From NCBI GenBank assembly GCA_020627985.1, contig JAHDFV010000005.1, forward strand, positions 1 through 37,773: a stretch of DNA of 37,773 nucleotides, written 5' to 3'. The notes beneath the pieces were generated by a model. It was not told the origin of the DNA and searched no databases. It saw only the letters and a list, made by a program, of their open reading frames with translations. How positions within the stretch are numbered: position 1 is the first letter of the stretch; the number at the start of each line of letters is the position of its first letter. Origin of the DNA: Saprospiraceae bacterium. GTDB taxonomy: Bacteria; Bacteroidota; Bacteroidia; Chitinophagales; Saprospiraceae. This document shows, one piece after another, positions 1,499-35,138 of this stretch. Made by a program: the position numbers and the translations under genes.

Positions 1499-1528
1499 TT
1501 TCTAGAAATAGATAAATAATTATAAATA

Positions 1529-2431: not shown

Positions 2432-2479
2432 CCAATACTTTTTTTTGTAAAACGATTTTAAATTCTAATTAAAAAACAT

Positions 2480-2497: not shown

Positions 2498-2515
2498 CTT
2501 CTTAATAATATTAAA

Positions 2516-3781: not shown

Positions 3782-3814
3782 TTCTAATAGCAATACATTT
3801 TAATAAAGATTAAA

Positions 3815-4864: not shown

Positions 4865-4877
4865 TTTGAGTTTATAA

Positions 4878-5747
4878 ATGAAAGGAATTATTTTAGCAGG
4901 AGGGTCAGGAACTAGGTTATATCCAATAACTAAAGCGATCTCAAAGCAATTAATGCCGATCTATGATAAACCGATGATTTATTATCCGCTTTCCATTCTT
5001 CTTCAAGCAGGAATTAGAGAAATCTTAATTATTACAACACCAGAAGATAATCCGCAATTTAAGCGATTATTAGGTGATGGTAAAAATTTAGGTTGTGAAT
5101 TCAAATACGCTATTCAAGAAATTCCAAATGGTTTGGCTCAAGCCTTTGTTATTGGAAAAGATTTTATAGGGGATGATGAAGTTGCTCTAATATTAGGGGA
5201 TAATATATTTTATGGAGCTGGCTTAACTCAATTACTTCAAGAAAGTGCTCAGTTAAAATCTGGAGCAAGAGTTTTTGCCTATCCAGTCAATGATCCAGAA
5301 CGATATGGTGTTGTTGAATTTGATAAGAACAACAAAGTAATATCAATAGAAGAAAAGCCTCAAAACCCTAAATCTATTTATGCCGTTCCTGGATTGTATT
5401 TTTATGATAATAATGTAGTAGAAATAGCTTCTAAAATTCAACCTTCAGCAAGAGGGGAATATGAAATAACAGATTTAAATAGAATCTATTTAGAAAAAAA
5501 TGAACTGGAAGTAGGTATCATGGATCAAGGAGTTGCCTGGTTAGATACAGGAACTTTTGATTCCTTAAATGATGCAACAGAATTTGTTCGGGTGATAGAA
5601 AAAAGACAATCTCATAAAATTGGTTGTATAGAAGAGATCGTTTGGAGAATGGGTTTTATTTCTGATGAACAATTAAATGATATTGCAAAACCATTAATTA
5701 AAAGTGGTTATGGAAAATATCTCTTGAATCTTTTGCAACGAAAATGA
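4878..5747 (+). CDS. rfbA: Glucose-1-phosphate thymidylyltransferase
   Basis: Makes dTDP-glucose from dTTP and glucose-1-phosphate, the first step of the dTDP-6-deoxyhexose route. The 289-residue length is typical. The nucleotidyltransferase signature GGSGTRLYP lies at residues 8-16, followed by [32 protein letters not shown] and EEKPQNPKS are further family markers, and [13 protein letters not shown] lies near the C-terminus. Its last 4 bases overlap rfbC, so the two are probably translated together. Confidence 0.97.
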
Positions 5748-6277
5748 AAGCAGTAGAACAGAGCATTAAAGGTGTATTCTTAATTGAACCTCAAGTATTT
5801 GGAGATCAGCGAGGTTATTTTTTTGAATCTTTTAATAAAAAGAAATTTTTAGAACAAACAGGAATAGATGTTGATTTTGTACAAGACAATGAATCAAAAT
5901 CTGATCTAGGTGTATTAAGAGGATTACATTTTCAAAAGGCACCCTTAGAACAAGCAAAACTCATTCGAGTTATACAAGGAAAAATATTTGATGTCGCTGT
6001 TGACATTCGCCCAAATTCAAAAACATTTGGACAATGGACAAGTGCTGTGTTATCTGCTGAAAACAAACATCAATTATTTATTCCCAAAGGATTTGCTCAT
6101 GGATTTTTAGCTTTAGAGAATGAAACTATTATCAGTTATAAATGTGATGAATTTTATTCTAAAGAACATGAAGGCGCAATTCGATTTGATGATCCCGAAA
6201 TAGGGATTCAATGGAATTTAAAAAGGGATAAAATTATTTTGTCAAAAAAAGATCTTGAAGCAGGATTTTTAAAATGA
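5744..6277 (+). CDS. rfbC: dTDP-4-dehydrorhamnose 3,5-epimerase
   Basis: Cupin-fold epimerase that inverts C3 and C5 of dTDP-4-keto-6-deoxyglucose. The 177-residue protein is normal in size. It shows [10 protein letters not shown] (21-30), QDNESKS (47-53), RGLHFQ with the catalytic His62, [11 protein letters not shown] and [12 protein letters not shown]. It overlaps rfbA by 4 bases. A terminator-like hairpin lies in the 143-base gap after it. With no RfbD-type reductase next to it, its 4-keto product may be reduced by an enzyme encoded outside the window or by one of the unassigned SDRs here. Confidence 0.96.
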
Positions 6278-6357
6278 ATTTGTTTAAAAGTAAAGCAGAA
6301 TACTGTTGGTCATTAAAACTAACAAAAAATCTTTACAGAAAATATATAGCTATTGTT

Positions 6358-6381
6358 GTGATTAATTAGAATCACTTTTTT
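6358..6381 (+). terminator. Terminator-like hairpin after rfbC
   Basis: GTGATT (6358-6363), loop AATTAG, AATCAC (6370-6375), then six T (6376-6381). The arrangement is that of an intrinsic terminator, but the stem is only 6 bp and AT-rich, so it may be weak or leaky. It falls in the 143-base gap between rfbC and the UDP-xylose synthase, one of the larger gaps in the locus. Confidence 0.4.
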
Positions 6382-6420
6382 AAACGTCCTCGATCATTAA
6401 ATATAAAGAACTAATTTATT

Positions 6421-7371
6421 ATGGAAAAATCATCTGGTAGAGTATTAATTACTGGTGCAGCTGGCTTTCTAGGATCTCATTTATGTGATCGATTTTTAAA
6501 AGAAGGATACCATGTCATTGGTATGGATAATCTTTTAACAGGAAACATAAAAAATTTAGAACATCTTTTCCCAAGAAAAGATTTTGAATTTTATCATCAC
6601 GATGTTAGTACTTATGTACATGTGCCAGGAGAGTTAGATTATATTCTACATTTTGCTTCACCAGCTAGTCCTATAGATTACTTGCAAATGCCGATTCAAA
6701 CAATGAAGGTAGGATCTTTGGGGACTCATAATTTATTAGGTTTAGCAAAATCTAAAAGTGCAAGAATGTTGATTGCATCAACTTCAGAAGTATATGGAGA
6801 TCCATTAGAGCATCCTCAAACAGAATCCTATTGGGGTAATGTAAATCCAATTGGACCAAGAGGTGTTTATGATGAAGCAAAACGTTTCCAAGAAGCAATA
6901 ACCATGGCTTATCATACGTATCATGGATTAGAAACCAGAATAGTAAGGATTTTTAATACATATGGTCCTCGAATGAGAACCAACGATGGTAGAGTTTTAC
7001 CAGCATTTTTTTCTCAAGCAATTAGAGGAGAAGGCTTAACGGTATTTGGAGATGGAAATCAAACTCGTTCTTTTTGTTATGTTGATGATTTAATAGAAGG
7101 TATTTATAGATTGCTTTTTAGTGATTATCATTTACCTGTCAATATTGGGAATCCTTCAGAAATAACAATGAATGAATTCGGAGAGGAAATATTAAAATTA
7201 GTAGGAAATCCGAAATCAAAATTGATTTACAAACCTCTACCAAAAGATGATCCTAAAAGGCGTAGACCTGATATTTCTTTAGCAAAAAAAGTCTTGGACT
7301 GGGTTCCTCAAGTCGATAGAGTGGAAGGACTTAGAAGGACATACGAATACTTCAAAACTGTTGTGAAGTAA
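6421..7371 (+). CDS. uxs: UDP-glucuronate decarboxylase (UDP-xylose synthase)
   Basis: Extended SDR that oxidises UDP-GlcA at C4, loses the carboxylate and reduces the ketone to give UDP-xylose. The 316-residue protein shows GAAGFLG (12-18), [25 protein letters not shown] (120-133), YDEAK (150-154) and [15 protein letters not shown]. The SPASP and GDPLEHPQ stretches are hallmarks of the UXS subgroup and set it apart from the 4-epimerases. The length excludes an ArnA-type fusion. The upstream ugd would provide UDP-GlcA. ATG start; a 49-base stretch separates the preceding hairpin from the start region. Confidence 0.93.
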
Positions 7372-8834: not shown

Positions 8835-9527
8835 ATGGATTTAAGACAGATCAATAAAATATATTCTGAAAAAAGCACAGAAGAAAGACTTCTCATGGCT
8901 TGGGAAGAATATGGAGGAGACATTTGTATGACATCTTCATTTCAGACACAAAGTGTACCGCTCTTATATTTAGTCGCTAAAACAATTCCTGAATTACCGG
9001 TTATATTTTTAGACACAGGTTTTCATTTTGCAGAAACATTAGCTTTTAGAGATCAACTAATTAATGATTATAATTTGAATGTCATTAATGTGAAAACAGG
9101 TATGGGGCACGATAATTTTAAAATGCAATATGGCAACCTGTATGAAATGGATCCAGATTTATGTTGCCATGTAAATAAAACATTACCCTTACAAGAAGAG
9201 TTAGATAAGTATAAGGCATGGATCGCAGGAGTAAGAGGAGATCAAACAGACAATAGAGCAGCAATGGATGTTGTGAATGTTCTAGAGGATGGGAAAGTAA
9301 AAATTTGCCCAATCATTGATTGGACAAAGAAAGATCTTTGGACTTTCCATACTAGAAATGAATTACCTTCTCATCCTTTATTTGTAAAAGGATTTATGAG
9401 TGTAGGTTGTGCGCCTTGTACAAGGGCTAGCAATGATGATACTGATGAGAGAGCAGGCAGATGGTCAGGAAATTGTAAAACAGAATGTGGTATTCATACC
9501 CACATTGGTAAAAAGAAAGACCAATAA
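8835..9527 (+). CDS. cysH: APS/PAPS reductase, 4Fe-4S type
   Basis: Reduces activated sulfate to sulfite. The 230-residue protein has a PP-loop-like N-terminus (TSSFQTQSVPLL), LDTGFHFAETL (59-69), Cys110-Cys111, the pair Cys192-x-x-Cys195 (GCAPC) and the catalytic-Cys tail ECGIH (Cys218). The CC...CxxC set binds a 4Fe-4S cluster and is known to mark the APS-reducing subgroup, so APS is the likelier substrate. No sulfite reductase lies in the window, while a UDP-sulfoquinovose synthase, which consumes sulfite, lies about 2 kb downstream. It ends in a TAATG overlap with the next SDR, which supports a role inside this locus. Confidence 0.93.
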   Translation: MDLRQINKIYSEKSTEERLLMAWEEYGGDICMTSSFQTQSVPLLYLVAKTIPELPVIFLDTGFHFAETLAFRDQLINDYNLNVINVKTGMGHDNFKMQYGNLYEMDPDLCCHVNKTLPLQEELDKYKAWIAGVRGDQTDNRAAMDVVNVLEDGKVKICPIIDWTKKDLWTFHTRNELPSHPLFVKGFMSVGCAPCTRASNDDTDERAGRWSGNCKTECGIHTHIGKKKDQ

Positions 9528-11512: not shown

Positions 11513-12664
11513 ATGAAAATAATAGTACTAGGAGCGGATGGTTATCTAGGATGGCCTACGTCTATGGACTTAGCCAATAAGGGACACCAAGTAATTGCAG
11601 TTGACAATTATTCTAGAAGAAATATTGCGATGCAAACATCTTCTGAAGGTTTAATGCATACGCCTAACTTAGAAGAAAGAGCTAAAATCTTTGAAGAAGT
11701 TTCGGGCAAAAAAATTGATGTAAGAATTGGTGATTTAAAGAATTACCGTTTTCTTGAAAATATGGTAAAAACGTTCAAACCAGATGCAATTGTGCATTAT
11801 GCTGAACAACCATCTGCACCATATTCTTTAAAAGGATACGAAGAAGCACACTATACTTTAAAGAATAACTTAGAAGTTACACACAATGTAATTTGGGCAG
11901 TATTAGAACATGCTCCTGATTGTCACCTTGTAAAATTAGGTACAATGGGTGAGTATGGTACTCCAAATATTGATATCGAAGAAGGTTGGTTAAATATCGA
12001 GCATAACGGTAGAAAAGGTAAATTCCTTTTCCCTCGTGCTGCAGGGTCATTATACCATACCACTAAAGTATTAGATACAGATTTACTTTGGTTCTATGTA
12101 AGAACATTTGGATTAAGAGTAACAGATTTAATGCAGGGACCAGTATATGGTTTATCTACAACAGAATCTGACATGGACGAAAGGTTATTACCTAACTTCC
12201 ACTATGATGATATCTTTGGTACAGTTGTAAATCGTTTCTTAGTTCAAGCAGTAGCTGGAGTTCCTTTAACTGTTTATGGAAAAGGAGGTCAAATTAGAGG
12301 ATACTTAAACCTTAAGGATACTTTACAATGTGTAGACTTAGCGTTAAATAATGTAGCTGACAAAGGAGAATTAAGAATCTTCAATCAGTTAACAGAAACA
12401 TTTACTGTAAATGAATTAGCTGAAAATGTACAAAAAGCAGGTGCTGCATTAGGATTAAATGTTGAAGTTAAATCTATTCCAAATCCAAGAAAAGAAGCGG
12501 AAGAACATTATTATAATCCAAAATATACTGGATTAATGGATTTAGGTTTAAAACCAAACTTAATGACAACTGAAGTTTTAGGTGAAATGCTTAAAATTAT
12601 CATCAAATACAAAGGAAATATCGATAATGAAAAGATATTCCCTCGTGTAAAATGGAATAAATAA
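11513..12664 (+). CDS. sqdB: UDP-sulfoquinovose synthase (SQD1/SqdB-like)
   Basis: Combines UDP-glucose and sulfite to give UDP-6-sulfo-6-deoxyglucose (UDP-sulfoquinovose), forming a C-S bond. The 383-residue protein tracks the SQD1 family over its length: GADGYLGWPT (7-16) for NAD, AEQPSAPYSL (97-106), HLVKLGTMGEYGTPNIDIEEG (first half about 138-147), YHTTK (181-185), FGTVVNRFLVQA and YGKGGQIRGYLNLKDT. The residues known in SQD1 as catalytic Thr, Tyr and Lys appear as Thr144, Tyr181 and Lys185. It follows the 4,6-dehydratase by 3 bases and ends before a strong hairpin. No recognised SqdX/SqdD lipid glycosyltransferase is nearby, so the sugar probably enters the polysaccharide rather than SQDG lipid. 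Confidence 0.92.
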   Translation: MKIIVLGADGYLGWPTSMDLANKGHQVIAVDNYSRRNIAMQTSSEGLMHTPNLEERAKIFEEVSGKKIDVRIGDLKNYRFLENMVKTFKPDAIVHYAEQPSAPYSLKGYEEAHYTLKNNLEVTHNVIWAVLEHAPDCHLVKLGTMGEYGTPNIDIEEGWLNIEHNGRKGKFLFPRAAGSLYHTTKVLDTDLLWFYVRTFGLRVTDLMQGPVYGLSTTESDMDERLLPNFHYDDIFGTVVNRFLVQAVAGVPLTVYGKGGQIRGYLNLKDTLQCVDLALNNVADKGELRIFNQLTETFTVNELAENVQKAGAALGLNVEVKSIPNPRKEAEEHYYNPKYTGLMDLGLKPNLMTTEVLGEMLKIIIKYKGNIDNEKIFPRVKWNK

Positions 12665-13780: not shown

Positions 13781-15139
13781 TTGAATAAATTAATAGATAA
13801 AGTACTCAATTTATTGGGTAAAAAAGGTGGGGCAGATACTTCTGAAATTTTAAAAGGAGGTGCTACCGCTTTTTTACTTAAGATTTTTGGTATCCTTAGT
13901 ACTTATGCGCTAACACTATTAATTACCAACAAATATGGAGCAGACATTTATGGAAATTATTCCTTTTTTGTAGCTTCTATTCGTATTTTAGGAATTGTAG
14001 CGATTTGCGGAATAGATATTTATTTACTTCGCTATATTTCTAAAAATAGTACAAATAATGATTGGCGAGAAATCATAAATTTAAATCGCAAAGGAGTAAT
14101 TGCGGTTCTTTCCAGTTCTTTTGTATTCTTTTCAGTATTAATATTAGGGCAAGATTATTTTTCCTACAAATTAGAAGTAACAGATTTTTTTATTCTTCTT
14201 CTAGCTATTGGAATAATACCTTTTACCTTATTTAAAATACATAATCAATCTTTCAGAGCGAGAAAGAACACACTTTGGTTTTCGCTTTTTGATTATATAT
14301 CAATTCCTTTTTTTACGATACTGATTTTATTAGCTTGTATTCTATTCAATGTAGAAAAAGCTGAATTACCTGTTATTGCTTTTTTCTCTGCAGTTTGTTT
14401 AGCTGCAATTTTCTCCATGACAAAATGGAGATTTTCTATTTCCAAGGAAAAAGAAAATTTAAAATTAAGTTCTTTTAAAGAAAATGTCAAAGAAGTACCA
14501 CAGCTATATAAATTGGCTTTTCCTTTTTTATTAGCAAGTTCTTCTTTGTTAATTGGACATTGGATTGTTCAACTCATGTTGAAGGTGTATAGTGGAAATT
14601 CAGAGTTAGGTATTTATGATGCGGCATTAAAAGTTGCTCAATTAACTATGTTACCATTAATGGCAAGTAATATTATTGCTGCTCCTAAATTCTCGGAATT
14701 CTTTACCAAAAATCAATTCAATCGTTTAGCCAATACAGCAAAAAATATTACCAATAGTATTGTCTTCATTACAGTACCGATTTTGATTGTTTGTTTTTTG
14801 GGAGCTGACTTTATCGTGAGTATTTTTGGGAAAGATTTTGAAGGGGCTGCTTTGGCTTTAAGGATAATTATTGTAGGACAATTTTTTAATTCTTTAACAG
14901 GTCCTGTTGGAGTTATTCTACAAATGACAGAAAATCAAAGCACTTTTAAAAATATAATTATGTTTACTACTGTAATTAATATTGCAGTAGGTGTTTTATT
15001 GATACCTATTTTAGGAGCAGTAGGTGCTGCAATTACCAATATGATTTTTCAAATTTTAACCAATGGAACTTGTACTTATTTTGTCTATAAGAAATTTGGT
15101 TTCCTTCCTTTTGGTCGTAAAAAATCTGTAGTACAATAG
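13781..15139 (+). CDS. wzx: Polysaccharide flippase (Wzx/RfbX-like)
   Basis: A 452-residue membrane protein with about 12 hydrophobic helices. It opens with LKGGATAFLLKIFGI followed by YALTLLITNKYGADIYG, which is the usual start of polysaccharide_synt/MATE-like flippases, and ends with paired helices containing GAVGAAITNMI. The family moves undecaprenyl-linked oligosaccharide across the inner membrane. Start is TTG at 13781: an in-frame stop (TAA at 13775-13777) lies just upstream and no earlier start is possible, so TTG is forced unless translation begins much further in. Its TAG stop shares one base with the GTG start of the sulfotransferase. Confidence 0.88.
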   Translation: MNKLIDKVLNLLGKKGGADTSEILKGGATAFLLKIFGILSTYALTLLITNKYGADIYGNYSFFVASIRILGIVAICGIDIYLLRYISKNSTNNDWREIINLNRKGVIAVLSSSFVFFSVLILGQDYFSYKLEVTDFFILLLAIGIIPFTLFKIHNQSFRARKNTLWFSLFDYISIPFFTILILLACILFNVEKAELPVIAFFSAVCLAAIFSMTKWRFSISKEKENLKLSSFKENVKEVPQLYKLAFPFLLASSSLLIGHWIVQLMLKVYSGNSELGIYDAALKVAQLTMLPLMASNIIAAPKFSEFFTKNQFNRLANTAKNITNSIVFITVPILIVCFLGADFIVSIFGKDFEGAALALRIIIVGQFFNSLTGPVGVILQMTENQSTFKNIIMFTTVINIAVGVLLIPILGAVGAAITNMIFQILTNGTCTYFVYKKFGFLPFGRKKSVVQ

Positions 15140-16047
15140 TGCAAAGAAAATATGTATTTATCGCTGGAGCTAATAAATCAGGTACAACATCTGTATTCGA
15201 TAATTTAAGTGAACACCCAGAAATTTGTCCTTCCAAAATAAAGCAAACCAATTATTTTTTGGATGAAGACTATGGTGAAGATAAAATGAGAAGCATTTAT
15301 CCTTTTAGTGATAACATAAATGTTTTTAATCAATTTTTTAATGATCAAGGAGAGAAAATTTACTTAGAAGCATCTCCTGATTATATGTATTCAAAAGGAA
15401 CACCTCAGAAAATTAAATCAGTAATAGGAGATCATCCGTTTAAAATAATTTTTATTCTTAGAGAACCAATTGACCGTTTGAAATCTTGGTTTAATTTTTC
15501 CAAACAATTAGGGAAATTAGAAGAAGGAAAAACGCAAGATGATTATTTTAATGATCTATTGAAACAGAAAGAAAACGGGTTTTTATCAACAGGGAATTAT
15601 ATAAATTATTTAAAAGAGTATTGGAAGGTTTTTGGAAAAGAAAATGTAAGTATTCTTTTTTTTGAAGATTTAAAAAACACACCAAATAACTTTTACAAAG
15701 AATTGTGTAATGAAATAGATGTTGATGAAAATTTCTTTAATGCTTTTGAATTTAAACATTCCAATAAAAGTATAAAAGTAAAATCAAAGTTAATTAATGG
15801 TATTTACATTAAAGTAAGGAAGTTAGTTATAGGGAATTTATTGAAAATTAAAGGAGGTGAAAAATATGTCAAAGTATTAAAAGAAAAATTGCTTCCTTAT
15901 TATAAAAAAATGAATACCCAAAAGATTGAAACAAAAGCAGCTCCTGAAAATAAAGTAATTAATCAATTAATTGAATACTATAAACCCTTTGTTCAAGAAC
16001 TTTTTGAAAGTACGAATAAAAAGAATCCTTGGGGATATTATCAATAA
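15139..16047 (+). CDS. PAPS-dependent carbohydrate sulfotransferase 1
   Basis: A 302-residue sulfotransferase. The 5'-phosphosulfate loop is FIAGANKSGTTS (7-18, Lys13), and the 3'-phosphate binding segment is FILREPIDRLKSWF (105-118) with Arg108 and Ser116. The general plan matches the heparan-type Sulfotransfer family. No signal peptide or membrane anchor is visible, so it should act in the cytosol, before Wzx moves the lipid-linked unit. GTG start at 15139 overlaps the wzx stop; its own stop overlaps the deacetylase ATG (TAATG). Acceptor sugar unknown. It would use PAPS from CysC. Confidence 0.9.
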   Translation: MQRKYVFIAGANKSGTTSVFDNLSEHPEICPSKIKQTNYFLDEDYGEDKMRSIYPFSDNINVFNQFFNDQGEKIYLEASPDYMYSKGTPQKIKSVIGDHPFKIIFILREPIDRLKSWFNFSKQLGKLEEGKTQDDYFNDLLKQKENGFLSTGNYINYLKEYWKVFGKENVSILFFEDLKNTPNNFYKELCNEIDVDENFFNAFEFKHSNKSIKVKSKLINGIYIKVRKLVIGNLLKIKGGEKYVKVLKEKLLPYYKKMNTQKIETKAAPENKVINQLIEYYKPFVQELFESTNKKNPWGYYQ

Positions 16048-17033: not shown

Positions 17034-17828
17034 ATGGGAAAAGATAAAAGAAGTAGACTACAAATTTGGAGTGCCAATTTAAAAAGACTCTATATGTGGC
17101 ACTTTAAAAACAAAAAATTAGGACTAGTATTAGTTACAGAATTTCCTAAATCAGGTGGGACATGGTTTTGTCAAATGTTAGAACAAGCAACGGGTATTCC
17201 TTTTCCTAGGAATGTAAGTCCTAATTTTGAAGAAGCAATAATGCATGGTCATAATATTTATCATAAGAATTACGGTAAAGTAATTTGTATTTTAAGAGAT
17301 GGACGAGACATAATGGTCTCAGCTTACTTTCATTTTTTATTTGAAAATGATAGGAATCCATCATTTAGCGTAAAAAATTACCGATCAAAAATGCCTTTTG
17401 ATGATTATGAGAATGTAGAAAAAAATATGCCTGAATTCATAAAATATATGTTTAATGGATATGCAGCAAAATGGAATCATAGCAGTTGGAGTCAAGTGGT
17501 AAATGCTAGTGTAGATAATTCAAATGTTTGTATTGTTAAATATGAAGAATTATTATCTGATGCACCTTCAGCAATGGATAGAGCTATTCGTTTTGTAGGT
17601 AAAACGCCTGTAAGTAGAGAAAAATTACAAGCAGTTGTAGATGATTTTTCTTTTAAAAAATTGACAAAGAGAAAACCTGGAGATGAAAATAAAAAGAGTT
17701 TCTTAAGGAAGGGAATAGCAGGAGATTGGAAAAATTATTTTAATCAAGAATCAATAGATCTATTTAAAAAATTAGCTGGAGCAGAATTAATTAAAGCTGG
17801 CTATGAAAAAAATATGGATTGGAAATAA
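17034..17828 (+). CDS. PAPS-dependent sulfotransferase 2
   Basis: A 264-residue Sulfotransfer_1-type protein, different from the one at 15139. The PAPS loop is EFPKSGGTWFCQ (36-47, Lys39), the 3'-phosphate segment is CILRDGRDIMVSAYF (85-99) with Arg88 and Ser96, and KYEELLSD marks the usual later strand. The end reads KRKPGDENKKSFLRKG followed by GDWKNYF, typical of the RKGxxGDWKNxF region that closes over PAPS; here it is RKGIAGDWKNYF. No signal peptide. ATG start 30 bases after the deacetylase. Acceptor unknown; N- or O-sulfation of the local glycan is likely. Confidence 0.92.
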   Translation: MGKDKRSRLQIWSANLKRLYMWHFKNKKLGLVLVTEFPKSGGTWFCQMLEQATGIPFPRNVSPNFEEAIMHGHNIYHKNYGKVICILRDGRDIMVSAYFHFLFENDRNPSFSVKNYRSKMPFDDYENVEKNMPEFIKYMFNGYAAKWNHSSWSQVVNASVDNSNVCIVKYEELLSDAPSAMDRAIRFVGKTPVSREKLQAVVDDFSFKKLTKRKPGDENKKSFLRKGIAGDWKNYFNQESIDLFKKLAGAELIKAGYEKNMDWK

Positions 17829-22490: not shown

Positions 22491-24161
22491 ATGAAAACGA
22501 GAATACTATATTTTATAGTTCTGATTCTAATATCCTTACCTATGAAGGGGCAGGATATATATCAACATATGTCAAAGCATTCGATATATGATTTTTTAAA
22601 TGAAGTTGCTGCTCAAAAACTCATTGAAATTAATTCAGCAATCCAACCTTATTCTAGAAAATTAATAGCATCGAAATTATCCGAATTAAATAATAATCGA
22701 GAATCATTAAATAAGAGACAGACAAAAGAATTAGAGTTTTTTCTTAGAGATTATAATAAAGAATTAAAAAGAGAAGAATTTAATGAACTATATAATAATG
22801 AAAAATTCTTCTCTAAAAAAACATGGTTTCATAAAAATGATTTAAAAAGATTAGATGCCATTTTCCATAGCTCTAAAAAATTTCAAGCAACAGTTAATCC
22901 TATTTTTGGAGTGGACTATATCGCTACAGAAAATATTTTTAGAAGATATTATGGAGGAGAAGTCAATACATATCTTGGAAAAGGATTTTCAGCTTTTTTT
23001 AGCTTTCGGGATGTTTCAGAAAATGAAGTATTAATTGACCCGCAATATTTTAATACATACCCTGTAGGAGCAAATAGACCTAATAGAGATAAAGACCTCA
23101 CAGATTTTAGCGAAGTAAGAGGAGGAATTACCTATGGTTGGGAATGGGGTACAATTGGTTTAGTTCAAGATCAATTTAGATGGGGGAATTCATATAAGAA
23201 TGCAAATATCTTTTCTGGTAATTTTCCAGCAATACCTCAAATAAAATTACAAGTAAAACCTACGAAATGGTTAGAATTTAATTATATACATGGTTGGTTA
23301 AATTCTGGGGTAATTGATAGTACCAGAACATATATCGCTGCAAACGGACAAGAAAGAGAAATCTTTAGAGAAAAGGCTATAGTTGCAAATATGTTTACGA
23401 TTAAACCATTTAAAAGTTTACATCTTTCATTTGGTAATTCTACTGTTTATTCTGATTCGAGCTTTGATCCTGCTTATTTAATTCCATTCTTTTTCTATAG
23501 ATCTGTAGATCATGCTCAAAGTAGTCAATCCAATAAAGCAGGTCAGAATGGACAACTCTTCTTAGATGTAAGTTCTAGAAATATTCCTTATTTACATTTA
23601 TATGGAACCTTATATATTGATGAACTAAAATTCTCAGTTGTTTTTGATAAGGAAAAACAACGTAATGAATTAGGATTTAAATTAGGAGCAGCCTCCTATA
23701 ATATTGCTAAAACCAATATTGGTTTTGTTGCAGAATATAATAGATCAAACCCTTACGCTTACCGACATGGATTGGACGCGACAACCTTGACAAATAATGG
23801 TTATAATTTAGGACATTATTTAAGAGATAATGCAGAAGAAATTTATTTCGAATTAAATTATAAACCAATCCAAAAATTAAAATGTAAAATTCATTATTTA
23901 AGGATAAAGAAAGGACCAGATGCAGACCAATACGGTTTCTTACCAGGTTTTGGGGGCATATCTGGAATTCCGTATCTAGAATCAATACAATATAAACAAA
24001 CAGAAATCGGATTAACCGTCCAATATGAAATATTCCATGATATTTATGCTAATGCAAGTTTAGTATCTTCAAAAATAACAGATGATACGAATTCATATAC
24101 ACCTCAATTTATGAGAGGACAACAAACTTTTGCAAATATTAGTTTGAATTGGGGATTTTAA
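22491..24161 (+). CDS. wzi: Capsule assembly Wzi-family outer-membrane protein
   Basis: A 556-residue protein with a signal peptide (MKTRILYFIVLILISLPMKG, cut near GQ-D) and a long C-terminal beta-barrel region with alternating aromatic strands, ending in ISLNWGF with a terminal Phe typical of outer-membrane beta-barrels. The pattern of RDLLEWGNSFRWG-like strands (here VQDQFRWGNSYKNA), the F-F-Y-R-S-V region and the short helical N-terminal domain (to about 115) fits the Caps_assemb_Wzi family. The role is surface attachment or export of the polymer. This supports a capsule-like or surface-bound product. Confidence 0.85.
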   Translation: MKTRILYFIVLILISLPMKGQDIYQHMSKHSIYDFLNEVAAQKLIEINSAIQPYSRKLIASKLSELNNNRESLNKRQTKELEFFLRDYNKELKREEFNELYNNEKFFSKKTWFHKNDLKRLDAIFHSSKKFQATVNPIFGVDYIATENIFRRYYGGEVNTYLGKGFSAFFSFRDVSENEVLIDPQYFNTYPVGANRPNRDKDLTDFSEVRGGITYGWEWGTIGLVQDQFRWGNSYKNANIFSGNFPAIPQIKLQVKPTKWLEFNYIHGWLNSGVIDSTRTYIAANGQEREIFREKAIVANMFTIKPFKSLHLSFGNSTVYSDSSFDPAYLIPFFFYRSVDHAQSSQSNKAGQNGQLFLDVSSRNIPYLHLYGTLYIDELKFSVVFDKEKQRNELGFKLGAASYNIAKTNIGFVAEYNRSNPYAYRHGLDATTLTNNGYNLGHYLRDNAEEIYFELNYKPIQKLKCKIHYLRIKKGPDADQYGFLPGFGGISGIPYLESIQYKQTEIGLTVQYEIFHDIYANASLVSSKITDDTNSYTPQFMRGQQTFANISLNWGF

Positions 24162-24175
24162 AAGAGAGAAAAACG

Positions 24176-25474
24176 ATGTACCAAAAACTATTAAGAAAAG
24201 AAAGTAAAATTGCTGTAGTTGGATTAGGCTATGTAGGTCTTCCTATTGCTTTGGAATTTGCAAAACACTTTAGTGTTATTGGTTTTGATATCAACCAAGG
24301 TAGAGTTGATTTAATGAAACAAGGAATTGACCCTTCTAAAGAATTAGATTCTGCTGCATTTGAAAATACAGATATTGAATTTACAACAGATGTAGAAATA
24401 ATGAGAACAGCTAACTTTTTTGTAGTTGCAGTTCCTACAGATATCAATGAACATAAAGTGCCAGATTTAACACCTTTATTGAAAGCTTCAGAGAGTGTAG
24501 GAAAAGTGATTAAAAAAGGCGATTATGTCGTATTTGAATCTACAGTTTATCCTGGTTGTACAGAAGAAGATTGTTTACCAAGAATAGAAGAATTATCAGG
24601 TTTAAAAAGAAATGTAGATTATAAGTTTGGCTATTCTCCTGAGAGAATAAATCCAGGGGATAAAGAAAAAACTTTAACAACAATTTTAAAAATAGTTTCT
24701 GGAGGAGATGAAGAATCTGCAGAACAAATTGATAAAGTTTATTCACATATTATTACAGCAGGAACACATAGAGCTTCATCTGTAAAAGTTGCCGAAGCAG
24801 CAAAAGTGATTGAAAACACTCAAAGAGATTTAAATATTTCTTTAATGAATGAATTAGCAATCATTTTTGATAAAATGAATATTGATACACAAGAAGTGCT
24901 AAAAGCAGCAGGTACTAAATGGAATTTCTTAAAGTTTTTTCCTGGCTTAGTAGGAGGGCATTGCATTGGAGTAGATCCTTATTATTTAATGCATAAATCA
25001 AAGCAATTAGGTTATGATCCACAAGTCATAGCCGCTGGTAGAAGAATAAATGATCATATGCCTGCATTTATTGTTAAGAAATTAGTACAAATGCTCATTC
25101 AAAAAGGTAAAAACCCTAGTGAATGTAAAGTGCTTGTTAAAGGAATAACATTTAAAGAAAATGTATCAGACATTCGTAATTCTAAAGTAGCTACTTTAAT
25201 TAAAGAATTAATGGAATATTCTGTAGCCGTAGATGTGGTTGATCCATATGCTTCTCCAGAAGAAGTTGAACACGAATATAAAATACAATTAACTTCAGAA
25301 ATTAAAGATAATTACGATGCAATTATTGTTGCAGTAAGTCATAATGAATATGAAGGATTAAATAATCATTATTTTTCTTCGAAAATGGTCAAAGAAGGCA
25401 TTTTAATAGACTTAAAAGGAATGTACGGAAATGGCAAAATGAAAGAAAAAGATTTTGAATATTGGAAATTATAG
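24176..25474 (+). CDS. tviB: UDP-N-acetylhexosamine 6-dehydrogenase (TviB/WbpO-like)
   Basis: A 432-residue nucleotide-sugar dehydrogenase that makes the uronate from UDP-GlcNAc or UDP-GalNAc with NAD. It has GLGYVGLP (16-23), VAVPTDINEHKVPDL, FESTVYPGCTEE (120-131), YSPERINPGD (153-162) and the catalytic GGHCIGVDPYYL (Cys263). The ORF track starts at TTG 24149, inside the wzi frame end; ATG 24176, 14 bases after the wzi stop and behind AAGAGAGAAA, gives the normal N-terminus, so I use it. The paired WbpP/TviC-like epimerase at 28145 suggests UDP-GalNAcA as product. Confidence 0.93.
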   Translation: MYQKLLRKESKIAVVGLGYVGLPIALEFAKHFSVIGFDINQGRVDLMKQGIDPSKELDSAAFENTDIEFTTDVEIMRTANFFVVAVPTDINEHKVPDLTPLLKASESVGKVIKKGDYVVFESTVYPGCTEEDCLPRIEELSGLKRNVDYKFGYSPERINPGDKEKTLTTILKIVSGGDEESAEQIDKVYSHIITAGTHRASSVKVAEAAKVIENTQRDLNISLMNELAIIFDKMNIDTQEVLKAAGTKWNFLKFFPGLVGGHCIGVDPYYLMHKSKQLGYDPQVIAAGRRINDHMPAFIVKKLVQMLIQKGKNPSECKVLVKGITFKENVSDIRNSKVATLIKELMEYSVAVDVVDPYASPEEVEHEYKIQLTSEIKDNYDAIIVAVSHNEYEGLNNHYFSSKMVKEGILIDLKGMYGNGKMKEKDFEYWKL

Positions 25475-25485
25475 ATAAAAGGTAA

Positions 25486-26886
25486 TTGGAAATTTTAAAA
25501 GACATTTCAAATCTTGTTTTTCAAGGGGGAGACGAACGGCTAGATATTCTAGAAACAGGGAATAATAAATATCATATTAATCCTACTGTATATGATAATC
25601 TTTTTAATAGAGGTTCTTGTACCTGTTCTACTTTAAATCCCTTAACAGCAAAAGTTCTGGAAGAAACGGATTTATTCGAAACACCAGATAATATAATTGC
25701 TACAAGAGATCATCAAATAAAAAGAATTAAATCTTTATTAAATTATGAAGGTAAAGATGAATTTGATTTAGTCTTTGCTCCTTCAGGAAGTGATTTGGCT
25801 TATCTGCCCATTCTTTTTTCTAAAATCCTTAAACCGACAAAAGAAATTTTATTAATCTTGACTTGTCCTGAGGAATTAGGTTCAGGGAGTCAAATGGCAT
25901 ATTTAGGAAAATATTATGCCAATAGAAATCAGTTTGGAGAAGAAGTGGAAAAAGGAGAAGACATTAATTTAAGATATGATGTCAACTTAGCTCGTTTTAA
26001 AGCGAGAAACGATGAAGGACAAATTATAAAACATAGCAATGAAATTAGCGATGTTTTAATTCAAGATAAAAAGAAATCAAAAATAGGTGCTTTAGTAATT
26101 GGTAGTAAATCAGGAATAGAAGATGATATTTCTTTAATTCCAAAATTGGATAAAGATGTGATGTGGGTGGTGGATTTATGCCAATTTAGAAATTCTAAAA
26201 GTTTAGTAAATCATCTTTTGGGAATGGGCTGTATGGTAATGATTACAGGCTCTAAGTTTTATATGGCTCCGCCATTTTGTGGAGTAATGTTAGTTCCTAA
26301 ATCAATGACTCAAAAAATCAATGACTCAGAAATATTACCAAAATATACAGAAGGTTTTGATAAAATTTTTTCACAATATGATTTCACAAATGGATTTTCT
26401 AACTTGAAAAAACATTTTAGGAAAAAAATAAATAAAGGATTAATATTAAGATGGGAGATTGCTTTAAATGAAATGGAAAGATTTAATGATATTCCTAGAG
26501 CTAATTCTTCAAAATTAATTCAAAGTTGGAATGCTACCATTCGTAATTCTATTCTAGAAAGTAATTCTTTTGAATTAATGCCTCATCAAGAAAAAACGAA
26601 TCAAAGTATTATTTCTTTTAGAGTGAAATCTAGATTCGGTACTTATTTAAGTTATGATGATTTAAAGGGTTTCTATCAAGAAACGGTAAATGATAATTAT
26701 GAAATAGGTTCATACACAAAAATATTTTTTGGACAACCTGTTAAATATAGTTGTGGCGCATTTATTCGTGTAGCCTTAGGGGCAAATAATATTTATACCC
26801 TTTTACAAGAAGAAGAGAATACTAGATTTGATAATGATAAATTATTTATGAAAATCCTAGATGAAAAAGCCAATTCATTTATATAG
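25486..26886 (+). CDS. Fold-type I PLP enzyme, class V aminotransferase-like, unassigned
   Basis: A 466-residue protein I cannot name. FAPSGSDLAYLPILF (98-112) fits the PLP-phosphate-binding Gly/Ser loop. VVDLCQFR (228-235) gives the Asp230-x-x-Gln233 pair that holds the PLP pyridine nitrogen, and ITGSKFYMAPPFCG (253-266) puts Lys257 24 residues after the Gln, as in class V aminotransferases/cysteine desulfurases. No Cys-containing desulfurase loop was recognised. The start is TTG: an in-frame stop lies directly upstream. It overlaps the next PLP gene by 26 bases, and the two split the tviB-tviC pair, so they may act together on an amino-acid or amine that decorates the uronic acid (inference). 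Confidence 0.65.
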   Translation: MEILKDISNLVFQGGDERLDILETGNNKYHINPTVYDNLFNRGSCTCSTLNPLTAKVLEETDLFETPDNIIATRDHQIKRIKSLLNYEGKDEFDLVFAPSGSDLAYLPILFSKILKPTKEILLILTCPEELGSGSQMAYLGKYYANRNQFGEEVEKGEDINLRYDVNLARFKARNDEGQIIKHSNEISDVLIQDKKKSKIGALVIGSKSGIEDDISLIPKLDKDVMWVVDLCQFRNSKSLVNHLLGMGCMVMITGSKFYMAPPFCGVMLVPKSMTQKINDSEILPKYTEGFDKIFSQYDFTNGFSNLKKHFRKKINKGLILRWEIALNEMERFNDIPRANSSKLIQSWNATIRNSILESNSFELMPHQEKTNQSIISFRVKSRFGTYLSYDDLKGFYQETVNDNYEIGSYTKIFFGQPVKYSCGAFIRVALGANNIYTLLQEEENTRFDNDKLFMKILDEKANSFI

Positions 26887-28090
26887 GAATAACATAGAAA
26901 AATGTAGTCAAATTCTACAGAATAAATTTAAAGAAAATCCAAAATTGTCTGGAGAGAAATCGCTTTATTTTTATAATGTTTCATTATTAGAAAATAGATT
27001 AAATCATTTACGAGAAGTATTTACTTCTAATAATGTTCTTCATGCCGCAGCAATAAAAACCAATAATATCCCTGAAGTTTTATCTCATATTGTAAATCTA
27101 GGATATGGTTTAGAAGCGGCATCTTTTGAAGAAGTTCTATTAGCGAAAACTGCAGGATGCCCAAATGAAAAAATAATTTTTGATTCTCCAGTGAAAACAA
27201 GGAAAGAAATACAGACTTGTGATCAAGAATATCCAGGAATGTATTTAAATGCTAATTGTTTCGCTGAATTAGAAAGACTAAAAGAAACGAATAACTTAAA
27301 TATTGGAATAAGAATTAATCCTTTAGTCGATATTAAAGCACCAGATATTTTTAATGTAAGTAATAATCGTTCGAAATTTGGAATACCTATTTCTGAAAAA
27401 AAGAAAATTATTTTTTTTGCATTAAATACAAATAATATTTCTGGCTTACATGTACATGCAGGTTCTGAAATTGGTAATATTAAAGGGCACATAGAAGCTA
27501 TAGGAGTAGTATATGATTTGGCAAAAGAAATTAATCATGTACAAAAAGATAAAATACGTTTCATCGATATAGGAGGAGGTTTTCCCGCCAATACAAAAAA
27601 AGGAAAACAAGAAGGCTTAGATACTTTTGTAAAAGAATTAATAAATAGATGTCCTTCTATTTTTAATGATTTTAAAATCATGACAGAATATGGAAGATTT
27701 ATTCATACACATAATTCTTTTGTAGTTAGTCAAGTAGAGTATGTTCTTGATCATACTGATCCCAATATTATTTTAACTCATGTAGGAGGCGATTTATTTG
27801 TTCGGGAAATTTATAGTAGTCATCCACCTTTTCACGAGATATCTATATTAAATGAAAAAGGACAAGTGAAAGAAGGAAAACAGCAAGAGTATGATATAGG
27901 AGGACCACTTTGTTTTACAGGTGATTTTTTAAAGAAAAATATTTCCTTACCAAAAGTAGAAGAAAAAGACTTAGTTATTATTGCGGATACAGGATCAAAT
28001 TCCATTTCAATGTGGTCTGGACACTGCAGCAGAGAAAAAATAAAAGTTATTATTTTTTCAGAAATCAATAATATAAATCAAACGGGATAA
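26861..28090 (+). CDS. Fold-type III PLP decarboxylase (DAP/ornithine decarboxylase-like), substrate unknown
   Basis: A 409-residue alanine-racemase/decarboxylase-fold protein. HAAAIKTNNIPEVL gives the PLP lysine Lys66 (AVKAN equivalent); HVHAGSEIG (197-205) is the conserved His-x-His-x-Gly-Ser segment; DIGGGFP (236-242) binds phosphate; TEYGRF (275-280) is the usual E-P-G-R with Tyr for Pro; GPLCFTGD (348-355) carries the Cys351 of decarboxylases. It resembles diaminopimelate or carboxynorspermidine decarboxylases, but no housekeeping lysA context is present. Its start lies 26 bases inside the upstream PLP gene, so coupling is likely. Reaction on a glycan-linked amino acid is possible but not shown. 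Confidence 0.8.
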   Translation: MKKPIHLYRNNIEKCSQILQNKFKENPKLSGEKSLYFYNVSLLENRLNHLREVFTSNNVLHAAAIKTNNIPEVLSHIVNLGYGLEAASFEEVLLAKTAGCPNEKIIFDSPVKTRKEIQTCDQEYPGMYLNANCFAELERLKETNNLNIGIRINPLVDIKAPDIFNVSNNRSKFGIPISEKKKIIFFALNTNNISGLHVHAGSEIGNIKGHIEAIGVVYDLAKEINHVQKDKIRFIDIGGGFPANTKKGKQEGLDTFVKELINRCPSIFNDFKIMTEYGRFIHTHNSFVVSQVEYVLDHTDPNIILTHVGGDLFVREIYSSHPPFHEISILNEKGQVKEGKQQEYDIGGPLCFTGDFLKKNISLPKVEEKDLVIIADTGSNSISMWSGHCSREKIKVIIFSEINNINQTG

Positions 28091-28144: not shown

Positions 28145-29104
28145 ATGAAAATTCTTGTCACAGGAGGTGCTGGATTTGTAGGTTCAAATATTGTTGAAGC
28201 ACTACTCCAAGATAAAAGAGTAACATTCGTAAGAGTTTTGGATGATCTCTCAACAGGATTTTTACATAACTTAGAAGAGTTTATGTCTAATCCAAACTTT
28301 GAATTTATCAAAGGCGATATAAGAAATTACCAAACCTGCTTAGATGCTTTTCAGGGGATTGATGCCATTACACATCAAGCAGCTTTAGGCTCTGTTCCTA
28401 GGTCAATAAATGATCCAATCAAAACGAATACAGTAAATATAGACGGTTTCTTAAACGTCTTTACTGCTGCGAAAGAATTGGGAATTAAACGAGTTGTTTT
28501 TGCAGCATCTTCTTCAACCTATGGTGATAACAAAGCTTTACCTAAAGTAGAAGATAATATAGGAAATCCATTATCACCTTATGCCGTTACTAAATTAGTA
28601 AACGAATTATACGCCAGAGTTTTTGGCGATATATATGGAATGGAATATGTAGGATTGCGTTACTTCAATATTTTCGGGCCTAGACAAGATCCAAACGGAG
28701 CGTATGCTGCTGTAATTCCTTTATTTATGAAAGCTGCTATCAACAACAATCCTCCAACAATAAACGGTGACGGATCTTTTAGTAGAGATTTTACTTATGT
28801 GAAAAATGCTGTACAAGCAAACTTATTAGCATTGTTTACAGAAAATAAAGAAGGCTTAAATCAAATTTATAATATTGCTTTAGGAGAAAGAACAACATTA
28901 AATGATCTGTGGACATCCATCAAAGATCATGCAGGTTGTGATAAAAAAGCAATTCACGGTCCTGAAAGAAGTGGCGATGTTCCTCATAGTTTAGCAGATA
29001 TTTCAAAGGCTAGAAAATTATTAGGATATAATCCAGAAATTAAAATAGATGAAGGATTAGGCTTAGCATACGAATGGTATACTAAATTTGTAGCCAATGT
29101 CTAA
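28145..29104 (+). CDS. tviC: UDP-GlcNAc/GlcNAcA 4-epimerase (WbpP/TviC-like)
   Basis: Extended SDR of 319 residues: GGAGFVG (7-13), LDDLSTGFLHNL, HQAALGSVPRSINDP (77-91), ASSSTYGDNKALPK (121-134), YAVTK (146-150) and RYFNIFGPRQDPNGAYAAVIP. The GSVPRS and RYFNIFGPRQ(D)PNGAYAAVIP stretches mark the WbpP/TviC subgroup, which acts on N-acetylated UDP-hexosamines or their uronates. With the TviB-like dehydrogenase it would give UDP-GalNAcA. It overlaps neuB by 8 bases, so it joins the nonulosonate genes to this block. Confidence 0.88.
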   Translation: MKILVTGGAGFVGSNIVEALLQDKRVTFVRVLDDLSTGFLHNLEEFMSNPNFEFIKGDIRNYQTCLDAFQGIDAITHQAALGSVPRSINDPIKTNTVNIDGFLNVFTAAKELGIKRVVFAASSSTYGDNKALPKVEDNIGNPLSPYAVTKLVNELYARVFGDIYGMEYVGLRYFNIFGPRQDPNGAYAAVIPLFMKAAINNNPPTINGDGSFSRDFTYVKNAVQANLLALFTENKEGLNQIYNIALGERTTLNDLWTSIKDHAGCDKKAIHGPERSGDVPHSLADISKARKLLGYNPEIKIDEGLGLAYEWYTKFVANV

Positions 29105-31264: not shown

Positions 31265-32206
31265 ATGAAAATCTTAATAGCGGAACCCGAAGATTTTAGT
31301 GAAGCGGTAATCGCTAAATTGAGAAAACATGCAACAGTAGATGTTGAACAATGTGAACCGCATAAAATAAAATGGGCATTAGAAAACTATGATGTTTTTT
31401 GGTTCAGATTAGCGCATAAAATGAACGCAGATGTTTTGACAGAAAACTCGCGCTGCAAAATTTTAGCGACTCCTGTTACAGGCATAGATCATATAGATAT
31501 TCCTTTATGTGAAAAGTTAGGGATTCAGATTGTTTGCCTTAAAGGCGAACGAGAATTTTTAAAAGAAGTAAGAGCGACTTCAGAAATGGCAATCGGTTTA
31601 GCCATGAGTGTAATGCGAAATATTCCTCGAGCAAACGAAGCGGTTAAAAAAGGAGAATGGGAAAGAGATCTGTATCGAGGGAATGAATTATACAAGAAAA
31701 CAATTGGTATCATTGGTTTCGGAAGACTAGGAGCGATTATGGCAGATTATGCCAAAGCTTTTGGAATGAAAATCGTTGCCGTTGAACCGAGAGAAGAAAC
31801 CAAGATCGGTGTAGAAGGAGTTGAGTTTTTATCATCTCTTGAAGAATTAGCAAGAGTATCCGATGTGATTTCTCTTCATGTGAATTACAATGAAGAAACA
31901 CATCATTTATTAAATGAGTCATTTTTTAAAGCGTGTAAAGCCAGCTCTTTTTTTATTAATACTTCAAGAGGTGGAATTGTAGATGAGAAAGCATTAGTGA
32001 AAGCTTTAGAAAATAAATGGATACAAGGTGCTGGATTAGATGTGCTACAAGGAGAACCAGAAGTACAAAATAACGTTCTAATCCAGTATGCTAAGAAGAA
32101 TAAAAATATAGTCATTGTACCACACATTGGTGGTAACACATATGAGTCTTTTGAGAAAACAGAACATTTTATAGCAGATAAAATTATTAAATTAATTGGC
32201 ACTTAA
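31265..32206 (+). CDS. D-2-hydroxyacid dehydrogenase family protein, role unknown
   Basis: A 313-residue NAD-dependent oxidoreductase of the D-isomer-specific 2-hydroxyacid dehydrogenase family. It has GIIGFGRLG (148-156), the catalytic Arg235 in NTSRGGIVDE, Glu264 in QGEPEV and His287 in PHIGG, so the active site is complete. An acidic residue follows strand 2 (VAVEPRE), favouring NAD. It lies between neuC and neuA and overlaps neuA by 11 bases. Family members reduce 2-ketoacids, and nonulosonic acids are 2-ketoacids, but free sialic acid is not a known substrate. Modification of a nonulosonate or its precursor, or an unrelated C3/C4 acid supply, are options; not resolved. Confidence 0.88.
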   Translation: MKILIAEPEDFSEAVIAKLRKHATVDVEQCEPHKIKWALENYDVFWFRLAHKMNADVLTENSRCKILATPVTGIDHIDIPLCEKLGIQIVCLKGEREFLKEVRATSEMAIGLAMSVMRNIPRANEAVKKGEWERDLYRGNELYKKTIGIIGFGRLGAIMADYAKAFGMKIVAVEPREETKIGVEGVEFLSSLEELARVSDVISLHVNYNEETHHLLNESFFKACKASSFFINTSRGGIVDEKALVKALENKWIQGAGLDVLQGEPEVQNNVLIQYAKKNKNIVIVPHIGGNTYESFEKTEHFIADKIIKLIGT

Positions 32207-32891: not shown

Positions 32892-33726
32892 AGAACAAGG
32901 TAGCTACGACGGATGGAATAATGTCTGGGGAAAACAATCCGAAAAAGAATATTTAAATCCGATGTATACTGAAGAAACACCCAAAACAATATTTCAGTTT
33001 TGGCAAAAAGGATATGCAAACGATTTATTAGAAATGATAAAAGATCGTTCATATAAAACATTTTGTGAATTAGGATCGGGGAGAGGTACTACGAGCATGT
33101 ATCTTTCAAAAAATGGGTATACAGATATTACGATGGTTGACTTGGCTGAGGAAGGTTTTAAAGTAGCAGAATATAGTTTTCAACATTATGGATTACCCTT
33201 ACCAAAAATGAAATTAGCCAATGTAGAACAAACAGATTTTTCTGCAAACTCTTTCGATTGTATTTATAATATAGGATTATTAGAACATTTCGAAGATCCT
33301 AGTAAAACTTTAAAAGAAGCATATAGGTTATTAACCCAAGGAGGATTAATTTTTATGCCAATAGTTCCTGAATTACCATTTTCTAAAGCGATGAGTTTAC
33401 GTTTAAAATATAATCCTATTTCGGTAGTTAAATATTACGTAAAAGCAGTTTTAGGAAAAAATAAAAAACAAAATGAAACTGGTATTTTAAGAACAACATA
33501 TAATAAGGCTTATTATGAAAAAATTACTAAAGAATTAGGATATAAAAATGTAAAATGCCTTGCGTATAATCCATATTGGAAAGTGACAGAAACGGGTAGT
33601 ACTGCAGAGGATAAAATGTTGAATGAATATATTTCTCATTACAATGAAAATAAAGAGAAACAAAATCCTTCATTATTAACTACAGATAAAAAAGAACTTT
33701 GCTACTTATTAATTGGAGAGAAATAG
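32881..33726 (+). CDS. Class I SAM-dependent methyltransferase
   Basis: A 281-residue methyltransferase (Methyltransf_11/25 type). Motif I is CELGSGRGTTSMYL (62-75), the acidic end of strand 2 is MVDLAEEG, and the FDCIYNIGLLEHFEDP stretch covers post I and motif IV. The start region WNNVWGKQSEKEY is common in sugar methyltransferases of Bacteroidota loci. It overlaps neuA by 11 bases, so it may O-methylate the nonulosonic acid or a neighbouring sugar (inference). No membrane segment. Confidence 0.86.
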   Translation: MSSKEQGSYDGWNNVWGKQSEKEYLNPMYTEETPKTIFQFWQKGYANDLLEMIKDRSYKTFCELGSGRGTTSMYLSKNGYTDITMVDLAEEGFKVAEYSFQHYGLPLPKMKLANVEQTDFSANSFDCIYNIGLLEHFEDPSKTLKEAYRLLTQGGLIFMPIVPELPFSKAMSLRLKYNPISVVKYYVKAVLGKNKKQNETGILRTTYNKAYYEKITKELGYKNVKCLAYNPYWKVTETGSTAEDKMLNEYISHYNENKEKQNPSLLTTDKKELCYLLIGEK

Positions 33727-33727
33727 A

Positions 33728-34813
33728 ATGGTAGATATTGCTTACATTATTTCTCATGGATTTGCTGCAAGAATGGTTATGCAAACCAATTTGTTAGGGA
33801 AATTAGTGCAACAAGGAAAAAAAGTAGCCTTAATTTCTCCTGATAAAAATGATGAAAATCTGGTGAAATATTGCCAAGAAAATAGAGTAGAATTACATGA
33901 ATTTTATGATCCAAAATCTCAAAAAGGTTCTGAATATTTAGAAGCAAGAAAATATTATTTAGAAGATGTGAAAAATAATACGGCACTTTGGGAAAAACAT
34001 ATTAGAGCTACTAAATATAATCCATCCAAAAATCCCATAAAACACCTTAGACCCAGATGGTTGTATTTTATTCACCAATTAATTCAAAAATTCCCATTCT
34101 TAAGAGAGACTTATATTAAAAAGGAAAATGAATTTATTACGTCTTCCAAAGCAGAAGATTTTATAGAGCAATTACAACCCAAAATTGTAGTAGCTACATA
34201 TCCAGTTAATTTTTTAGAAGGGATGTTGCTAAAAGCAGCGAAGAAAAAAGATAAAAAAACAATCATTCATCTTTTAAGTTGGGATAACATTAGTTGTAAA
34301 GGAAGGTTCCCAGCACTAGCAGATGAATACATTGCTTGGGGACCCATTATGAAAGAAGAATTTCAATCCTATTATAATATTCCAGCTAAGAAAATTCATG
34401 CACTAGGTGTTCCTCATTTTGATTTGCATTTAGAAAGTAAAAAGAATCCAAATGCTTCAGTATATATTGAAAAATTAGGAATAAATAGTGAGTTGCCATA
34501 TATTTTTTTTGGGATGAGTTCTCCACGCTTTGCACCCAAAGAAATTGATATTGTAGAATGGATTGCTACTGAAATAAAGAAAAATACTTTTGGTGAAAAA
34601 ATGCAATTTATTATACGACCTCATCCACAAAATGTACAAGGAGGGATGGCTGATAAATCTTGGTTGCCAAGATTAAAAGCATTGCAAGGAAATAGAGTCG
34701 CTGTTGATTTTCCTGATTTAGCCGATAAAAGCAAAATGGCGTGGTCGATGCAAATGAATGATATTATTAGTTTGTCTCAGTTAATTGCAAGTAGTTCTGT
34801 TAGTTTAAATTAA
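33728..34813 (+). CDS. GT-B-like transferase, N-terminal part of a frameshifted gene
   Basis: About 361 residues from ATG 33728 to the TAA at 34811. The ORF track starts at TTG 33713, inside the previous gene; ATG 33728 sits one base after the previous stop and follows GGAGAG, so I prefer it. The fold looks like GT-B: an N-terminal half with HGFAARMVMQTNLL, and a C-terminal half with IFFGMSSPRFAPKE, IIRPHPQN and SQLIASSSVSLN, where the family would continue into an E-A-S-I-D-A-L-type segment. The continuation is in the +1 frame just after the stop (34809 on), so this is the front of one broken or mis-sequenced gene. Donor unknown; possibly a CMP-nonulosonate transferase (speculative). Confidence 0.75.
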   Translation: MVDIAYIISHGFAARMVMQTNLLGKLVQQGKKVALISPDKNDENLVKYCQENRVELHEFYDPKSQKGSEYLEARKYYLEDVKNNTALWEKHIRATKYNPSKNPIKHLRPRWLYFIHQLIQKFPFLRETYIKKENEFITSSKAEDFIEQLQPKIVVATYPVNFLEGMLLKAAKKKDKKTIIHLLSWDNISCKGRFPALADEYIAWGPIMKEEFQSYYNIPAKKIHALGVPHFDLHLESKKNPNASVYIEKLGINSELPYIFFGMSSPRFAPKEIDIVEWIATEIKKNTFGEKMQFIIRPHPQNVQGGMADKSWLPRLKALQGNRVAVDFPDLADKSKMAWSMQMNDIISLSQLIASSSVSLN

Positions 34814-34835: not shown

Positions 34836-35138
34836 ATGTGTGATACACCTGTTATATTAACATCTTTTGATGGAGATGCTCAATTAGAATATTGGGCTTC
34901 AGCCAGAAGATTAATTGATTATCCACATTTAAAAACATTAGTGGAAACGAAAGGAGTCGATGTTGTTGATTCTTATACAAAATTAGTGGAAACTATACAG
35001 AAATATATAAACGATCAAGATACTAATTTAGAGAATAGAATATCTTCTGTGAATCAATATTGTTCGAATTATCAGGAAATGTCAACAGAAAAAGTAGTAA
35101 ATTTATATATAAATACTTTAGGTCATGAGCAGAATTAA
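34836..35138 (+). CDS. C-terminal part of the frameshifted GT-B-like gene
   Basis: The frame is open from 34809 as IKEASIDALMCDTPVI, and the first ATG is 34836. The 100-residue ORF (CDTPVILTSFDGD near its start) is the natural continuation of the ORF ending at 34813: removing one base from the AAA at 34807-34809 would join SSSVSL to IKEASIDAL. As a separate protein it lacks a fold of its own and is unlikely to be functional unless the two parts assemble or the shift is a sequencing error. It overlaps the PhyH-like gene by 14 bases, so coupling remains intact. Confidence 0.7.
   Translation: MCDTPVILTSFDGDAQLEYWASARRLIDYPHLKTLVETKGVDVVDSYTKLVETIQKYINDQDTNLENRISSVNQYCSNYQEMSTEKVVNLYINTLGHEQN

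Follow-up and report, generated by a model that had tools for sequence, protein, structure and literature searches.

The window, a 37,773-nucleotide stretch of contig JAHDFV010000005.1 from a Saprospiraceae bacterium (assembly GCA_020627985.1), carries two adjoining forward-strand genes for PLP enzymes. The first (W25; 25486–26886, 466 aa, TTG start) encodes a class V-like protein of probable fold-type I, and the second (W26; 26861–28090, 409 aa) a fold-type III (alanine-racemase-fold) decarboxylase that resembles DAP decarboxylase (DAPDC) and falls in a clade of its own. As the initial annotation had stated, the two reading frames overlap by 26 bases (26861–26886, forward strand) and lie between tviB-like and tviC-like genes. 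On the same strand, a TviB/WbpA-like UDP-HexNAc 6-dehydrogenase assigned to UDP-HexNAc uronate formation (24149–25474) precedes the pair and a TviC-like UDP-uronate 4-epimerase (28145–29104) follows it, both assigned from Pfam, NCBIfam and locus comparison; their top NCBIfam models are TviB and TviC, each scoring below cut-off (502.9 bits against 592 and 329 bits against 760, respectively). A Pfam scan of 28 window ORFs detected no amidotransferase or ATP-grasp ligase, in agreement with the earlier reading. Eight further ORFs (423–7371), judged by eye alone outside that scan, resemble sulfate-activation and sugar-nucleotide genes.

A PAPS-reductase-like CysH (8835–9527) lies in the window downstream of cysC/cysD/cysN-like genes and near an SQD1-type UDP-sulfoquinovose synthase (11513–12664), which matches PDB 1qrr with an E-value of 5e-125; the locus probably directs synthesis of a sulfoquinovose-containing polysaccharide. 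Two sulfotransferase-domain proteins (15139–16047 and 17034–17828) belong to the same glycan locus and make sulfate esters likely in addition to the sulfonate sugar. Further downstream, a PGDH-like D-2-hydroxyacid dehydrogenase (31265–32206), flanked by a NeuC-like gene on one side and a CMP-sugar synthetase on the other, is also present in the related locus L002 and absent from L004. The ORFs at 33713–34813 (366 aa, surface-polysaccharide-like) and 34836–35138 (100 aa) resemble a single frameshift-split gene, and their L002 homolog is likewise divided into two ORFs.

Neither Pfam nor NCBIfam returned a match for W25, comparison with PDB sequences, either singly or as an alignment profile, yielded chance matches only, and none of 19 homologs scanned singly matched an informative family. 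The W25 family thus has no name in these three resources, and the alignment with a known housekeeping enzyme that the initial annotation had named as counter-evidence did not appear. Profile–profile comparison by hhalign against an alignment of class V enzymes, assembled from ten enzymes out of four of the genomes, gave a probability of 95.3 and an E-value of 2e-8 over 339 columns, pairing K257, D230, Q233 and R428 of W25 with the PLP lysine, the PLP-N1 aspartate, the glutamine and the C-terminal arginine of class V. D230, Q233 and K257, the residues highlighted from the sequence at the outset, are invariant across 19 diverse homologs. Pfam Aminotran_5 did not exceed its cut-off in the window protein or in the 19 homologs, which places W25 as a remote relative, outside that Pfam family as curated; on these alignments, membership of class V is nevertheless highly probable. 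The AlphaFold model of W25, built on a shallow four-sequence alignment that left out the loci from whole-genome searches, is poor (pLDDT 45.6) and its active site is not readable, although the structures that match it best are fold-type I proteins, mostly of class V (SerC, SufS, IscS, AGT), with transaminases also represented and a best match at Z 11.5 and rmsd 4.4 over 216 residues. Residues conserved throughout the family include R18, R174, R235, R322 and R428, a set of invariant arginines that suggests an anionic substrate. Invariance of five cysteines (C45, C47, C127, C232 and C265) is confined to the close clade with decarboxylase partners; elsewhere they are lost piecemeal.

Homologs of W25 were found in three Saprospiraceae MAGs and in 17/395 class, 5/149 order and 15/395 phylum genomes, a distribution that identifies it as an accessory gene. 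More distant homologs (~25% identity) occur in 33 rhizobial plasmid records, and no relative was detected in viral contigs. In all 19 loci with a fold-type III partner, representing at least six families, the decarboxylase lies directly 3′ of the W25-type gene, an arrangement far beyond chance; among the 18 such pairs measured, 15 overlap by 1–29 bases and three are separated by 1–87 bases. The 17 closest members of the W25 tree, all of them paired, form one clade, with the paired L060 and L061 proteins among the remainder, and part of the family (f55, f10 and the rhizobia) has no adjacent decarboxylase. W25 and W26 thus constitute a genuine, conserved two-enzyme module, and that they form a functional pair is close to certain. 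Two variations were recorded: the W25-like protein of f104/g281 bears an extra N-terminal domain that has no Pfam match, and one genome (G815) encodes a second, solitary W26-like decarboxylase (L127:8833–10281, reverse strand) ~20 kb from its own pair.

The partner is not always of the same fold. Within f104/g281, the next gene after the W25-like one in L063 (8416–12082) and L064 (7050–10719, reverse strand) overlaps it by 26 bases and encodes a group II PLP decarboxylase (PF00282), and in L065 (7655–11299, reverse strand) the two proteins are fused into one of 1214 aa; the PF00282 matches have E-values of about 1e-50. The best-scoring model for these partners is DABA decarboxylase, although the scores fall far short of its cut-off. 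That a single class V family is found next to decarboxylases of two unrelated folds is best explained by two consecutive steps, and W25 probably supplies the amino acid on which W26 acts. Two rhizobial plasmid clusters place a remote W25-like gene directly 3′ of an NRPS gene, the position that an enzyme making building blocks would be expected to occupy; the single readable adenylation module of each cluster is presumably glycine-like and uninformative.

W26 is a fold-type III decarboxylase of the Orn/DAP/Arg group, with PF02784 (106 bits) and PF00278 (42.8 bits) both above cut-off, and its K66 and C351, as previously noted, are present and invariant across 15 homologs. The best NCBIfam model is LysA (TIGR01048), reached with 193.7 bits against a cut-off of 297.9, and phylogenetic analysis separates the W26 proteins from LysA into distinct clades with support of 100/99. 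Of the 11 pair genomes tested, seven encode an above-cut-off LysA elsewhere, among them the two complete genomes from the same family. In the substrate pocket, R315 of W26 aligns with R285 of TmDAPDC, the binding residue for the distal carboxylate, and F352 with E315, the one for the distal amine (PMC8277567). According to the rules described for the superfamily, an aspartate in the specificity helix marks enzymes for basic side chains, with arginine there in DAPDC, and an acidic residue adjoining the catalytic cysteine serves a side-chain amine (PMC7857480). Both R315 and F352 are conserved without exception in 18 W26 proteins; retention of the former, together with phenylalanine in place of the distal-amine Glu/Asp, favours a side chain that is acidic and carries no amine, which is the likely character of the W26 substrate as judged from sequence. 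The position of R279 is occupied by R, K or Q within the family and its counterpart binds the PLP phosphate in relatives, so the argument for an acidic substrate rests mainly on R315 and F352. By score, tree and pocket residues, W26 is not LysA.

Seven pair loci were identified in the taxonomic order of the window (the window itself, L002, L003, L004, L025, L026 and L058), and all seven carry HexNAc-uronate genes, encoding a TviB-like dehydrogenase and/or WlbA/B/C-like proteins. In the f6 loci the pair is accompanied by sulfotransferases, a PIG-L deacetylase and flippases, and the stretches read there show no gene recognisable as a uronate dehydrogenase. Across the 19 pair loci, 12 lie in glycan loci, L061 is ambiguous and six lie outside, five of these belonging to one genus. 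The initial annotation had regarded a pair found mostly outside polysaccharide loci as evidence against its proposal, and the survey returned this mixed picture: in f13/g64 and L060 its neighbours are unrelated genes, so that glycan function cannot be generalized to every pair, and the six non-glycan loci show that the link between product and polysaccharide does not hold in all cases.

A possible joining enzyme is encoded in other families. Asparagine-synthetase-like proteins that start MIG[FY]SG, retaining the PP-loop and lacking the N-terminal MCG with the glutaminase Cys2, adjoin the pair in L027 (6364–8154, reverse strand), L028 (5969–7759, reverse strand) and L029 (11862–13643), whereas control AsnBs start MCGI; these proteins are candidate amine ligases. 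More diverged Asn-synthetase-like proteins without MCG adjoin the pair in L058 and L061. The Cys2-less neighbours occur in three families other than that of the window, whose own, incomplete genome showed only ordinary-looking AsnB; no ligase was found in the window itself.

Taken together, the data are compatible with a two-step PLP module whose product is a small amine bearing an acidic terminus and serving, in this locus, to decorate a surface glycan, a reading to which we give slightly less than even chances as a whole. In the first step W25 would make a non-proteinogenic acidic amino acid, and in the second W26 would remove its alpha-carboxylate to give an omega-acidic amine; where present, the glutaminase-dead Asn-synthetase-like ligase may then join this amine to a carboxylate, plausibly that of a HexNAc-uronic acid. 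An acidic amine as the product is an evenly balanced proposition, and its amide linkage to a uronic acid is more tentative. We infer the step order, the acidic substrate, the amine identity and the glycan attachment; the class V relation, the constant pairing, the two decarboxylase folds, the placement of W26 outside LysA, the pocket residues and the co-location with uronate genes are computed. The two-step route to an amine on a uronic acid, as first proposed for this locus, therefore stands as a reasonable hypothesis with circumstantial support: the conserved unit, the uronate genes in all seven loci of the order and the ligase-type neighbour in other families speak for it, and the lack of a ligase in the window speaks against it, while the amine nature of the product, its identity and the amide link keep their conditional standing.

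Within this two-step reading, taurine specifically would be an unlikely product. In that version W25 would be a new sulfonate- or sulfur-incorporating class V enzyme that makes use of its five-cysteine set, and its product, cysteate or a similar amino acid, would be converted by W26 to taurine or a homologue capping uronic acids, an equally unlikely combination. A gene of the ComA (phosphosulfolactate synthase) family adjoining the pair in L029 was considered as a pointer to sulfonates and rejected because of its high background: ComA occurs in 166/198 class genomes and in only 4/15 pair genomes tested, being common in the class and rarer in pair genomes, so the adjacency is uninformative. Despite this frequency in the class, ComA was not found in the tested members of three families, namely that of the window, f13 and f55. 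The CysH of the window was likewise set aside as a sign of a sulfonated amine, since the SQD1-like synthase explains it better. A phosphonate route is disfavoured, as no strong PEP mutase match was obtained in G202, G321, G384, G796 or G560. A literature search for uronic acids bearing taurine or an amide link, and for cysteate synthase, found nothing usable.

Among explanations that depart from this order of events, the best surviving, though still improbable, is that W26 acts first, on an available amino acid, and the resulting amine becomes the substrate of W25 (a transaminase, for example), or that W25 is an epimerase providing the DAPDC-like W26 with a D-amino acid. Epimerases and amine transaminases are both known within class V, DAPDC works on a D-centre, and transaminases figure among the structural matches of the poor W25 model; however, group II partners normally use L-amino acids, which would make an epimerase step needless there, and the NRPS-linked rhizobial copies have no adjacent decarboxylase. 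It is less probable still that the substrate of W26 is an amino acid in conjugated form, attached beforehand to a uronic acid, for instance, or to some other acid, with W25 only preparing the amino acid. FigC, SbnH and AcsE, members of the DAPDC side unrelated to polyamines, do use citryl-conjugates, and FigC, like W26, has a non-acidic residue beside the catalytic cysteine, but W26 retains the specificity-helix arginine of DAPDC rather than the Thr/Tyr set of FigC, and the f13 pair has no sugar or ligase neighbour.

A polyamine or diamine module producing putrescine, cadaverine, agmatine or diaminopropane is very improbable. Although W26 falls within the ODC/ADC/DAPDC superfamily and the group II partner finds its best, if sub-threshold, model in DABA decarboxylase, the aspartates for basic side chains are absent: Arg315 occupies the specificity helix where ODC, ADC and CASDC carry aspartate, and Phe352 lies beside the catalytic cysteine. 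That W26 is the housekeeping DAP decarboxylase of lysine biosynthesis in an incidental neighbourhood can practically be dismissed, for although LysA is its best model and its own genome, yet only 83% complete, shows no other LysA, the deficit in score, the LysA encoded elsewhere in most pair genomes tested, the separate clades and the replacement of the distal-amine Glu by Phe all argue against it.

A conserved PLP family that has no Pfam, NCBIfam or PDB name, associated with two unrelated decarboxylases, indicates an amino-acid or amine pathway not yet described. Should the product decorate uronic acids, it would represent a new glycan substituent together with genes that predict it from sequence, and the sulfonate version, if true, would be a bacterial route capping glycan uronic acids with a sulfonated amine. 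The fusion and the pocket residues render the substrate class directly testable.

Comparison with characterized systems shows both shared and distinguishing features. W25 shares with class V enzymes (the cysteine desulfurases SufS and IscS, SerC, AGT and AEP transaminase; Aminotran_5) a probable fold-type I character, the GSK/GHK PLP lysine, the D-x-x-Q motif and the C-terminal carboxylate-binding arginine, and is distinguished from them by the absence of a Pfam or NCBIfam match, by its own invariant motifs (GxDxR, SxT, ExGxG, SK, RW and GQxV) and by the five-cysteine set of the paired clade. SepCysS, a class V enzyme that has conserved cysteines together with an iron–sulfur cluster, offers a lead only: both proteins combine a class V character with several conserved cysteines, whereas the cysteine spacing differs and W25 has no tRNA link. 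W26 resembles LysA, such as the T. maritima enzyme (2yxx), in its fold-type III character, K66, C351, GGG loop and specificity-helix arginine, and departs from it in the Phe substituted for the distal-amine Glu, an HCSR C-terminal signature, a score below the TIGR01048 cut-off and a separate clade. With the FigC/SbnH/BtrK group it shares derivation from DAPDC, a place in non-polyamine pathways and, in the case of FigC, a non-acidic residue beside the cysteine; unlike that group, it keeps the DAPDC arginine and is partnered by a class V enzyme rather than by a siderophore synthetase or carrier protein. The group II PLP decarboxylases (PF00282), which include DABA, aromatic, cysteine-sulfinate and glutamate decarboxylases, have a fold unrelated to that of W26, yet in L063–L065 they occupy the same slot beside a W25-family partner, in one case as a fusion.
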